Below are positions 1 to 3,796 of a DNA stretch of 7,485 nt, piece after piece; position 1 is the stretch's first letter; each line of letters starts with the position of its first letter. The notes beneath the pieces were generated by a model, which was not told the origin of the DNA, ran no database searches, and saw only the letters and a program-made list of their open reading frames with translations. Origin of the DNA: Solirubrobacteraceae bacterium. Lineage in GTDB: Bacteria; Actinomycetota; Thermoleophilia; Solirubrobacterales; Solirubrobacteraceae. The translations under genes and the position numbers were made by a program. The stretch covers positions 1 through 7,485 of the forward strand of contig JAICUS010000285.1 in NCBI GenBank assembly GCA_025935735.1. Direction: 5' to 3'.

Positions 1-470
1 ACGCCCTTGTAGTCGAAGCTGTAGTAGCCGCTGCCGTGCGACCCGCGGCCGAAGAAGCGCCGGTACAGCTTCCCGCCGTCGACGAACACGTCGTGCTCGC
101 CCGGGACGTGGAACGTGCGGTCGGTCCTGATCGTGCCGGTGATCTGCTTGACCGTGTCGAACTCGCCCGCCGTGGACAGGTGCACGTGGTCGCCCGTGTG
201 CACGACGAACGCCGGCCGCTGCGGCAGCGCGTTGATGCGCGCCACCGCCTGCTGGTAGGTGCCGGTCACGTCGGTGTTCGGCGCGTGGTCGAAGCCGATG
301 TGGCTGTCGCTGATCTGCACGAACGTGAAGTCCGCGCGCGGGGCGGCCGCCGCCGCCGCGTCGACCGGGCGCGAGCGCATCTCGCCGCCGCACGCGCTGA
401 CCACCACCGCGGTCCCGGCCCAGGCCATGCAGCCGAGGAAGCCCCGGCGGTCGATGCCGTCGTCGGTCAC
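1..470 (-). CDS. Tat-exported calcineurin-like metallophosphoesterase, probable lipoprotein (C-terminus outside window)
   Basis: Partial gene: the first ~156 residues are present and the frame is open through position 1. The N-terminus has a twin-arginine motif (DRRGFLG, residues 7-13), a hydrophobic stretch and a lipobox-like VSAC ending at Cys27, so export by Tat and lipid anchoring on the outer face of the membrane are likely. The mature part shows metallophosphoesterase blocks in order: ISDSHIGF (Asp55, His57), HTGDHVH (Asp94) and VPGEHDVF (124-127 GEHD in place of the usual GNHD). The family hydrolyses phosphate mono- or diesters with two metal ions; the substrate cannot be read here. 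I chose the GTG at 470-468 because it precedes the RR motif and overlaps the stop of the cupredoxin gene by 4 bases (GTGA), which points to translational coupling; the next ATG (residue 15) would delete the Tat motif. It is the last visible gene of the sigma/Rieske/cupredoxin operon. Confidence 0.85.
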   Translation of the reverse strand, partial: MTDDGIDRRGFLGCMAWAGTAVVVSACGGEMRSRPVDAAAAAAPRADFTFVQISDSHIGFDHAPNTDVTGTYQQAVARINALPQRPAFVVHTGDHVHLSTAGEFDTVKQITGTIRTDRTFHVPGEHDVFVDGGKLYRRFFGRGSHGSGYYSFDYKG

Positions 471-805
471 CTGCGCACCACCACGACGCCGTGCATGTAC
501 GGGTGGATCTTGCAGAAGTAGCTGTAGGTGCCCGGCTTGCGCAGGACGATGCTGTAGCGCTTGCCGGTGTCGAGCGCCTGGGAGTGCAGCGCGCGGCCCT
601 TGGTGCTCGTGACCGTATGCGGGTCGCCGTCGCGGTTGACCCAGGTGATGCGCGTGCCCGGCTTGACCACCAGCCGCCGGGGCTGGAACTTGAACATGGT
701 GATCTTGACGGTCTTGGCCGGCGCGGCGGGCGCCCGGGCGGCGTCGGCGAAGCCGGCGACGCCGATGGCCGCCGCCGCCACCGCGGCGGCGAGTTGGAGC
801 TTCAT
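467..805 (-). CDS. Secreted cupredoxin (plastocyanin/amicyanin-like type 1 copper protein)
   Basis: A complete 112-residue protein. Residues 1-25 form an Ala-rich signal peptide (MKLQLAAAVA... with ADA/ARA cleavage options), so the protein is exported. The rest is one cupredoxin domain: VKPGTRITWVNRDGDPHTV carries the first copper ligand His63, and YFCKIHPYMHG gives Cys98, His101 and Met104. The C-x2-H-x2-M loop is the short amicyanin-type ligand loop, and all four type 1 copper ligands are present, so a functional one-electron carrier is expected. The ATG at 805 is well supported by AGGAGG at 820-815, nine bases upstream. It lies 27 bases after the Rieske gene and overlaps the phosphoesterase start by 4 bases. 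A copper electron carrier beside an extracytoplasmic Rieske centre suggests that the two exchange electrons, which is inference. A protein of this size could instead work in copper storage or delivery. Confidence 0.93.
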   Translation of the reverse strand: MKLQLAAAVAAAAIGVAGFADAARAPAAPAKTVKITMFKFQPRRLVVKPGTRITWVNRDGDPHTVTSTKGRALHSQALDTGKRYSIVLRKPGTYSYFCKIHPYMHGVVVVRR

Positions 806-814
806 CGGTTTGGT

Positions 815-820
815 CCTCCT
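815..820 (-). promoter_or_regulatory. Shine-Dalgarno sequence of the cupredoxin gene
   Basis: AGGAGG on the minus strand, nine bases before the ATG at 805. It is the strongest ribosome site in the sigma/Rieske operon, which otherwise relies on overlapping GTGA junctions, so the cupredoxin may be made in larger amounts than its neighbours. Confidence 0.8.
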
Positions 821-832
821 CTGGTTGTCGGT

Positions 833-1498
833 TCAGGCTTCTTCGCGCGTCCCGCGGGCGTACACGCGCCCGCGCGCGACGCGCAGGTCGATCTCGGGCA
901 GCGCCCGCGGCGCCAGGCCGGCCACCACGCGGCCGGCGGCGTCGAAGCGCGAGTCGTGGCACAGGCAGCGCAGGCCGTCGCCGTCGGGCTTGACCCGGCA
1001 GCCCATGTGGGTGCAGATCCCGGACACGGCGCGCAGCGCGCCGCCGCGGTTGAGCAGGTAGCCCTCCACGCCGCCCGCGGTGAACGCCTTGGCGCCGCCG
1101 GGCGGCACCTCCTCCACCGCGGCGACGTCGTACCAGCGCCCGGCGCCGGCCGCGACGAGCGCGTGGGGAGCGCCGGCTCCGAGTTCGCCCAGCGCGGCCG
1201 CGGCGCCCGCGCCGCCGGCGGCCACGGCCACGGCGTTGCGCACGAACGCCCGGCGGCTCACGCCCCGCCGCCCGGGCCGCGCGCCGGCGATCGCCTCGCC
1301 GACCCGCTGCTCGAGCGCCTGCAGGAAGGGCTCCGTCGGCGCCGCGCCGGTGCAGGCCACCCGCAGCTGGGCGGCCAGCAGGCGCGCCGCCAGCTCGTCG
1401 GCGTCCCGGGCGTGCGAGGCCGGGCGCGCGGGGCCGGCGAGCGCGTCCAGATAGGCGTCGAGCCGCGCGACGCGGTCCAGCGAGACGGGCTCGCTCAC
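833..1498 (-). CDS. Membrane-anchored Rieske [2Fe-2S] protein with cytoplasmic N-terminal extension; candidate redox-sensing anti-sigma factor
   Basis: A 221-residue protein in three parts. Residues 1-78 form a helical, charged, presumably cytoplasmic region (LDAYLDALAG, then LAARLLAAQLRVA and EPFLQALEQRV). A twin-arginine motif SRRAFV (81-86) leads into one Ala/Gly-rich span at about 87-106. Residues ~120-217 are a Rieske domain with both cluster boxes intact: CTHMGC (Cys162, His164, Cys167) and CLCHDS (Cys178, Cys180, His181). Cys162, His164, Cys178 and His181 would hold the cluster, and Cys167/Cys180 would form the usual disulfide. A bc1-type Rieske subunit would normally be beside cytochrome b and c genes; none is seen here. 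Instead the GTG start at 1498 overlaps the sigma factor stop (GTGA) with GGAG upstream, the arrangement of sigma/anti-sigma pairs. The extension lacks the HxxxCxxC zinc motif of common anti-sigma factors. The Rieske assignment is firm; the anti-sigma role is inference. Confidence 0.93.
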   Translation of the reverse strand: MSEPVSLDRVARLDAYLDALAGPARPASHARDADELAARLLAAQLRVACTGAAPTEPFLQALEQRVGEAIAGARPGRRGVSRRAFVRNAVAVAAGGAGAAAALGELGAGAPHALVAAGAGRWYDVAAVEEVPPGGAKAFTAGGVEGYLLNRGGALRAVSGICTHMGCRVKPDGDGLRCLCHDSRFDAAGRVVAGLAPRALPEIDLRVARGRVYARGTREEA

Positions 1499-2031
1499 GC
1501 CGCGCTCCGCTCGGCCACCGCGGCGGCGCGGCGCAGCGCACGCAGCTGGACGACCCGCGCGTGCCCGGGCGTGATGCCCAGGGCAGCGGCGATCCGCCGC
1601 GAGTCCAGGTCGTGCAGGAAGCGCAGCCGCAGCACCTCGCGGTCGCGCTCCGGCAGCGCGGCGAGGATGCGCTCGGCGCGCTCGCGGGTGCGCCGGACCT
1701 CCTGCTCGGAGTCCGAGCCGCAGAACAGCAGCCGCTCGGCCACCTCGCGGGTCAGCTGGTCGTCCTGCGCCTGCGCGCGCCAGAAGTCGGCGATGCTCGT
1801 GCGCGCCGTGGCGTACAACCAGGCGCGGATGCTGTCGGCGCTGCGGTCGGCGGCGATCCAGCGGACCGCCTTCAGGAACACGACGCTGGTCAGGTCCTCG
1901 GCCGCGGCCCGGTTGCCCACCTTCGCGTAGATGAAGCGATGGATCTCGGCGGCGTTCTCCTGGAACGCCGTCCGCACAGCCGCCGAGGCGGCCCGCTCCC
2001 GCACCATCGTGTCCAGCTCCCCAGCCGCCAT
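1495..2031 (-). CDS. ECF-type (group 4) RNA polymerase sigma factor
   Basis: A compact 178-residue sigma factor with only regions 2 and 4. Region 2 spans about residues 22-86 (FQENAAEIHRFIYAKVGN, AAEDLTSVVFLKAVRW, then IRAWLYATARTSIADFWR), covering core binding and -10 recognition. After a ~30-residue linker, region 4 spans about 118-171 (ILAALPERDREVLRLRFLHD followed by a helix-turn-helix ending ALGITPGHARVVQLRALRRA), which recognises the -35 element. There is no C-terminal extension. Two starts are possible: ATG at 2031 (GGTGAG directly against it, poor spacing) and ATG at 2007 (residue 9) with GGGGAG nine bases upstream, which is the better ribosome site and gives 170 residues; both keep region 2 intact. 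The stop overlaps the Rieske start by 4 bases, so the Rieske protein is its likely regulator. ECF factors often transcribe their own operon; the upstream region has a candidate element. The regulon is not visible. Confidence 0.93.
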   Translation of the reverse strand: MAAGELDTMVRERAASAAVRTAFQENAAEIHRFIYAKVGNRAAAEDLTSVVFLKAVRWIAADRSADSIRAWLYATARTSIADFWRAQAQDDQLTREVAERLLFCGSDSEQEVRRTRERAERILAALPERDREVLRLRFLHDLDSRRIAAALGITPGHARVVQLRALRRAAAVAERSAA

Positions 2032-3355: not shown

Positions 3356-3796
3356 TCAGCGCAGGTGGAAGGTGAAGTCGTACTTCGTGCCGCCGGCCAG
3401 CGAGTGCAGGCGCATCGTGCCGCGCACGGCGCGGTAGCGCCCGGTGCCGCCGGTGATCGCCAGCGTGCTGTCCTTGGCGTCGTAGAACGGCCCCTGGACC
3501 ACGATCTGCCCGCCCTTGAGGAACGTCGTCCACGTGCACTCGTAGGACGCGCCGGCCACGACGCGGACGCAGTAGCCCTGGTCGGAGCCGACCTGCCGGG
3601 CGTCGGCCCGGTTGAACACCGGGTTGGCGAAGGTGAGGATGTCGCCCGCGCTGTCGCCGGCGGCGCCCGTGTCGGTCGTCGCGTCGGTGAGCGCGTGCTC
3701 GACCACCCGGATCGTCTTCCGCGGTGCCGCGGAGGCGGGCGCCGCGAGCGCGCCCGCCACGACGAAGGTGGCCAGGACTGCCGGTAGTCGCTGCAT
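3356..3796 (-). CDS. Secreted dirigent / allene-oxide-cyclase-like beta-barrel protein
   Basis: A 146-residue protein with a signal peptide (residues 1-23, ending APASA before APRK). The mature part matches the small eight-stranded barrel shared by plant dirigent proteins and allene oxide cyclases: GDSAGDILTFANPVFN (48-62), then GSDQGYCVRV (70-79), YECTWTTFL (85-93), IVVQGPFYDAKDSTLAITGG (98-117) and GGTGRYRAVRGTMRL (116-130), the last being the most typical segment. Cys76 and Cys87 could form a disulfide outside the cell. In plants these barrels guide stereoselective coupling or cyclisation; bacterial members are common in actinobacteria but have no established role that I can name, so no reaction is proposed. 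AAGGGAGG (3810-3803) lies six bases before the ATG. Only 15 bases separate it from the permease stop, so the two are probably co-transcribed. Confidence 0.8.
   Translation of the reverse strand: MQRLPAVLATFVVAGALAAPASAAPRKTIRVVEHALTDATTDTGAAGDSAGDILTFANPVFNRADARQVGSDQGYCVRVVAGASYECTWTTFLKGGQIVVQGPFYDAKDSTLAITGGTGRYRAVRGTMRLHSLAGGTKYDFTFHLR

Follow-up and report, generated by a model that had tools for sequence, protein, structure and literature searches.

Conserved pairing of an ECF sigma factor with a membrane Rieske protein, a probable transmembrane regulator with an outer iron-sulfur cluster

An ECF sigma factor gene and the gene for a membrane-bound Rieske protein form a conserved pair, which probably encodes a sigma factor together with its dedicated transmembrane regulator. 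The cytoplasmic N-terminal domain of the regulator (the “N-domain”) would sequester the sigma factor, and the Rieske cluster on the other side of the membrane would sense a signal and bring about the release. The conserved gene pairing and gene fusions of the N-domain indicate that the outer cluster probably reports redox or metal conditions to the sigma factor. The pair is located in a stretch of 7,485 nucleotides from a Solirubrobacteraceae bacterium (contig JAICUS010000285.1), which is named “the window” here. Its relevant features are the following.

1495..2031, minus strand: ECF sigma factor with the regions sigma2 and sigma4, 178 aa, Pfam Sigma70_r2 and Sigma70_r4 above the cut-off.
1495..1498, minus strand: GTGA overlap of sigma stop and Rieske start, read directly from the sequence.
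833..1498, minus strand: membrane Rieske protein, the proposed anti-sigma factor, 221 aa, PF00355.
1265..1498, minus strand: residues 1-78, predicted cytoplasmic three-helix, sigma-associated N-domain, from the alignments A1 and A2, HMM searches, sigma fusions, and AF2 models of relatives.
1184..1258, minus strand: residues 81-105, twin-arginine motif SRRAFVRN plus single span, from motif and hydropathy.
857..1138, minus strand: residues 121-214, outer [2Fe-2S] domain of the Rieske type, its six key residues complete, from Pfam, A1, and motif.
467..805, minus strand: exported cupredoxin, likely in the same operon, PF13473/PF00127 above the cut-off.
3..470, minus strand: metallophosphoesterase, truncated at the window end so that only its 5' part is present, PF00149 above the cut-off.

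The pair heads a run of four genes on the minus strand (window 3-2031) in the order sigma factor, Rieske protein, cupredoxin, and metallophosphoesterase, and the last two genes also share a GTGA overlap. The same order was present in the Chloroflexota loci L048 and L051 and on a Mycobacteroides plasmid (L115). The first-pass annotation had described the GTGA junction between the sigma and Rieske genes and the lack of cytochrome bc genes in the vicinity. Both statements were borne out, the second one by a scan of the 8 other window ORFs, none of which matched a cytochrome b or c family. A TACTAC-n5-GTAGTA dyad was spotted by eye at 2063-2079, in the interval that separates the sigma start from a divergently oriented ORF for a small membrane protein (2117-2335). 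Elsewhere in the window, an allene oxide cyclase/dirigent-like protein (3356-3796, minus strand; PF06351 and PF03018 above the cut-off) adjoins an amino acid permease gene.

The sigma ORF matched Sigma70_r2 with an E value of 7e-10 and Sigma70_r4 with 9e-10. It is short and contains only the sigma2 and sigma4 regions, which identifies it as an ECF sigma factor. Its closest solved structure by sequence is 6dxo_A, a chain of the RsbN-BldN complex. In the Rieske protein, PF00355 matched residues 122-201 (E value of 1e-14), and the six Rieske residues are present in CTHMGC from position 162 and CLCH from position 178. The twin-arginine motif at residues 81-88 is followed by one Ala/Gly-rich, weakly hydrophobic span with a best 19-residue mean hydropathy of 1.41, starting at position 89-90. 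On motif and hydropathy, the arrangement of an approximately 78-residue extension, one span, and an outer [2Fe-2S] domain with six residues, as read in the first-pass annotation, was found again. It is the layout of a transmembrane anti-sigma factor, composed of a cytoplasmic domain, one span, and an outer domain. By the same two measures, the best span exceeded a value of 1.3 in 118 of 140 family sequences and an RR pair was positioned just before the span in 117 of the 140.

Conservation of the pair was evaluated with a genome survey. A protein search yielded 75 homologues of the window Rieske protein. The alignment A1 of homologues (27 aligned rows) covers proteins that are 36-73% identical, and the extension aligns throughout. 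The A1 profile was run against 301 genomes of Chloroflexota, the phylum to which an Oscillochloris genome belongs, at an E value of 1e-22 or lower, and returned 67 Rieske matches in 59 of these genomes. An ECF sigma gene was located directly upstream on the same strand at 67 of the 67 loci, including L049 and L107, which have broken Rieske ORFs and were kept for this count. The loci were selected on the whole Rieske model and not on the sigma gene, so that the presence of the N-domain follows partly from the search model but the adjacency of the sigma gene is independent of it. A plain tblastn search with the window sigma factor likewise found the neighboring sigma gene at 30 of 30 of the first loci taken. 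With start codons chosen by the analyst, the distance between both genes ranged from -35 to +78 nt; with these starts, the genes overlap in 53 of 68 pairs (window included), by exactly 4 nt in 29 and by 8 nt in 12 of them.

All-against-all clustering of the ORFs showed that the sigma and Rieske families were the only ones common to all 68 loci. The third-largest cluster occurred at 30 loci and was mostly antisense to the pair at its start, and the next clusters occurred at 14 loci or fewer. Rieske genes without the extension served as controls (47 loci, 45 of them distinct, composed of 13, 4, and 30 loci, the 30 from 12 pair-bearing genomes), with flanks of 1.5 kb for 34 loci and of up to 5 kb, where the contig allowed, for 13 loci. 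None of the 45 distinct control loci contained a sigma match at an E value below 1e-5, with one weak match of 1.6e-4 at L004. Compared with these controls, the 67 of 67 pairs confirm that the gene pair is conserved far beyond chance.

Outside the Chloroflexota, sigma adjacency in actinomycetes rests on one named record, the Mycobacteroides plasmid NC_021278.1, where both genes overlap by 4 nt. The genome survey that the first-pass annotation had proposed as a check gave 67 of 67 Chloroflexota loci plus this actinomycete record. The Rieske protein of NC_021278.1 has 1,667 relatives at an E value of 1e-3 or lower, and several of the 120 listed relatives are named Mycobacterium or Mycolicibacterium. 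A search of plasmids gave one full-length relative, a search of viral contigs gave no relative, and PHROGs contained nothing for the Rieske protein.

The sigma factors of the pairs are a distinct subgroup dedicated to the Rieske partner. When the sigma alignment A6 was searched against the 12 pair-bearing genomes that had supplied 30 of the controls, 111 matches were obtained at an E value of 1e-12 or lower. The 13 Rieske-adjacent sigma factors, 6 of which were in A6 and 7 of which were not, scored between 191 and 241 bits, and the other 98 matches reached 120 bits at most. Adjacency at 67 of 67 loci and 13 of 13 within the subgroup is the conserved pairing with one sigma subgroup that is expected from an anti-sigma factor. 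Mirror-tree correlations of 65 of the 68 loci (L049, L107, and L093 left out) were 0.84 for sigma factor and N-domain, 0.82 for sigma factor and Rieske domain, and 0.80 for N-domain and Rieske domain; these values are alike for all three parts and do not discriminate between them. In 66 stretches upstream of the sigma genes, a shared ECF-type promoter was not found. The commonest two-box word occurred in 12 of the 66 stretches and was GC-rich, five simple shuffles gave maxima of 8-10, and boxes of the GGAAC type were seen 2 times compared to 1.5 times expected. No upstream promoter motif is claimed.

The conserved columns of the N-domain suggest three helices, the first ending in a frequent R-R-P, the second around A-A-x-L, and the third around P-x-P-x-F-xxx-L. 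An HMM of the diverse alignment A2 (49 sequences, from 48 of the 67 loci plus the window) detected the N-domain in 71 of 72 tested relatives of the window protein (of the 75 homologues), in all of the 120 relatives listed for the NC_021278.1 Rieske protein, and in none of 1,815 control ORFs. A second HMM, built from A1 alone and including none of the 67 loci, found it at 62 of the 67 loci with an i-E value below 1e-4 and at 66 with 1e-2, missing L093. This model also matched 110 of 120 listed fusion proteins, described below, at values below 1e-4 and none of the 1,815 control ORFs below 0.01.

The N-domain reaches the cut-off of no known anti-sigma family. The first-pass annotation had stated that the extension lacks the zinc-binding motif HxxxCxxC; this motif occurs in 0 of 140 family sequences, and assignment to the zinc anti-sigma factors (ZAS) was rejected. 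The NCBIfam model “anti-sigma factor” matched 2 of the 49 N-domains with a best value of 8.9e-4, too thin to use, and the N-domain profile gave no anti-sigma chain among its 11 PDB hits up to an E value of 10. Residues 6-40 of the window N-domain matched RsdA_SigD_bd (PF16751) weakly, with E values of 0.018 and 0.0059. The scores of 15.7 and 17.3 bits compare to a gathering cut-off of 26.7 bits, and membership in this family was rejected as well. Six of 27 close relatives share the match, the best of them with a value of 4.2e-4; among the 49 sequences of A2, it is restricted to the window itself. The RsdA protein of M. tuberculosis binds region 4 of SigD, and region 4 of one paired sigma model (L063, see below) is close to SigD4; the differences are the score below the cut-off and the restriction of the match to the window among the diverse N-domains. 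RsdA is not known to contain a Rieske domain.

ECF anti-sigma factors often possess one span and an outer part. The factors of classes I to III have a small helical cytoplasmic domain and are encoded together with their sigma factor (PMC7406223). Like RseA, ChrR, RskA, CnrY, and RsbN, the window protein has a small helical predicted cytoplasmic domain and is encoded with a sigma factor. Unlike the class I to III proteins, its N-domain scores below every family cut-off, the family is devoid of the zinc motif, and the outer part is a Rieske domain.

A second line of evidence comes from fusions. At L050 and L068, a second sigma-like ORF upstream of the pair carries the N-domain at its C terminus, without a span or a Rieske part. 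The i-E values of the N-domain in these ORFs were 3.7e-10 (L068) and 5.5e-9 (L050), and the best value of 69 other sigma ORFs was 0.3. The fused protein has 223 relatives at an E value of 1e-3 or lower. The N-domain was present with an i-E value below 1e-5 in 119 of 120 listed fusion relatives, and none of 600 shuffled sequences scored below 0.01. Since the N-domain is found both next to sigma proteins and as a part of them, it very likely serves to bind sigma factors. The first-pass suggestion of a different sigma-binding domain agrees with these fusions and with the missed family cut-offs, and fusions plus pairing are the strongest support for its idea of an Fe-S-sensing anti-sigma factor. 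The sigma-like fusion proteins themselves may act as decoys, or they may exert a further level of control over the pair. Members of the fusion family are L050:2705-3436 (plus strand), the ORF on the reverse strand of L068, and P0196-P0315, many of which are named hypothetical.

Structure models were obtained with AF2 for two natural pairs in which both genes share a reading frame, each modeled as one continuous chain with Gly in place of the stop. The L114 chain (470 residues) reached a mean pLDDT of 78 and a pTM of 0.54. Its N-domain appeared as helices at 193-209, 222-236, and 246-269, with block means of 74-92 compared to 82-96 in the Rieske part. By the analyst's estimate, the pTM is about that expected if sigma2, sigma4, and the N-domain formed one unit with the Rieske part floating. 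The L063 chain (241 residues, short linker) had a mean pLDDT of 84, a pTM of 0.57, and N-domain block means of 69-91, and would fit at most partial docking. Both runs appear compatible with docking of the N-domain onto the sigma factor but not decisive. Region 4 in the L063 model superposes on SigD4 with 0.9 A for 3vfz_A and 0.8 A for 3vep_D over about 60 columns, although the Foldseek E value was only about 0.1. Fold searches related single sigma domains to BldN, SigW, and SigL; whole-sigma superpositions had an rmsd of about 12-26 A, indicating that only the single domains match well. The Rieske part resembled PetC3 and the arsenite oxidase subunit. No row was returned for the N-domain in lists that were filled by the sigma and Rieske parts, and this result has little weight.

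These data can be combined into a model. The three helices of the N-domain would bind the sigma factor on the cytoplasmic side and retain it at the membrane, out of reach of RNA polymerase; this sequestration and inhibition is proposed by analogy to the known ECF anti-sigma factors. The single span, inserted by the Tat route, would join the N-domain to the extracytoplasmic Rieske [2Fe-2S] sensor. A change of the cluster, by its redox state, by its loss, or by failed making or export, might alter or destroy the regulator and set the sigma factor free. Once free, the sigma factor would direct the transcription of its targets, with its own operon probably among them; in the window, this operon also comprises the cupredoxin, conceivably a partner of the cluster, and the metallophosphoesterase. 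Autoregulation of this kind could occur, as could sensing of the redox state or loss of the cluster.

Proteolysis often releases sigma factors from transmembrane anti-sigma factors. It is possible, though unlikely, that the N-domain binds the sigma factor while the cluster only stabilizes the protein or provides a check on its export, and that the sigma factor is freed by a different signal, for instance proteolysis. An Asp replaces the first cluster His (C-x-D-x-x-C) in 5 of 67 scored sequences (L060, L067, L103, L109, and L111), and the canonical cluster is therefore not universal in the family. On the other hand, 132 of 140 family sequences keep the complete ligand and disulfide motifs, a constraint that would be strong if the cluster were no more than a scaffold. 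The remaining 8 are these five, P0065 without one disulfide Cys, and the broken ORFs L049 and L107.

It is improbable that the Rieske protein acts as an electron carrier together with the cupredoxin, shares an operon with its sigma factor by coincidence, and uses the N-domain for assembly instead of sigma control. The cupredoxin gene follows the pair in the window, L048, L051, and L115, and a cupredoxin-like ORF was present somewhere in the analyzed stretch at 8 of 67 loci. A downstream neighbor ORF was picked at 57 of the 67 loci and none at 10; some picks may be spurious. Of the 57, 54 were scanned and gave other exported families such as YtkA (4) and Lipoprotein_15 (3) besides Cupredoxin_1 (3). 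These genes would suit an electron carrier, but no further gene family is common to the pairs, the N-domain is fused to sigma-like proteins lacking a Rieske part, and the families listed for the 54 downstream neighbors (25 of 36) included no cytochrome b. Moreover, the window protein stayed far below the cut-offs of the bc1, b6f, and arsenite oxidase models, with 40.1 versus 97.4 bits for TIGR01416, 34.6 versus 275 bits for bc1_QcrA_actin, 33.9 versus 250 bits for PetC, and 37.2 versus 95.65 bits for the arsenite oxidase small subunit TIGR02694. A Tyr residue of respiratory Rieske centers raises their potential. Its position is occupied by Phe in 63 of 66, 71 of 72, and 120 of 120 scored sequences in the three sets, and this, together with the absence of cytochrome b from the scanned genes, speaks against quinol oxidation. 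A respiratory complex subunit, one of the findings that the first-pass annotation had named as refuting its proposal, left no sign in the ORFs and families scanned and is disfavored. Compared with the Rieske subunits of bc1/b6f complexes and arsenite oxidase, the window protein has an extra N-domain and a sigma partner, no cytochrome b was found for it, and it misses the equivalog cut-offs. At L050 (4703-5236, plus strand) and L068, a second Rieske gene is located directly downstream of the pair; the next ORFs scanned at L050 were one without a Pfam match and one for a PAP2 protein, neither of them a cytochrome b.

That the N-domain instead activates the sigma factor, or tethers it in a positive way, has little probability: the direction of control is unreadable from sequence and the fusions indicate association only, but membrane partners encoded beside ECF sigma factors are mostly inhibitory (see also PMC7406223 on class I anti-sigma factors), and the five fusions scanned, which showed only sigma region 4 (above the cut-off in 3 of 5) and no region 2, look less like active sigma factors.

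The preferred reading, a sigma factor held by a Rieske-type transmembrane regulator, has a counterpart in the anti-sigma factors RsmA and RshA, both of which contain a [2Fe-2S] cluster (PMC3427169 and PMC8346170); the ligands in RshA are cysteines (PMC3427169). The cluster of the window protein differs from these by being of the Rieske type, with Cys and His ligands, and by its position beyond a membrane span. RsmA and RshA are cytoplasmic proteins. Among the titles and abstract openings listed in a search of the open literature, none described a sigma/Rieske pair, and within this scope a Rieske domain that senses on the far side of the membrane would be without precedent.

Tentatively, and with somewhat less than an even chance, the pairs may represent a class of Rieske-gated transmembrane redox signaling in Chloroflexota and actinomycetes, with a hitherto unrecognized anti-sigma domain and a cluster that could pass electrons to or from the cupredoxin. 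The recognized roles of Rieske proteins are those of electron carriers and oxygenase components. If the proposal is true, it would couple gene expression directly to the redox or copper state beyond the membrane, would add one more, new sigma-binding domain, and would explain many proteins of actinomycetes and Chloroflexota that are now labeled as respiratory or ferredoxin-type Rieske subunits.
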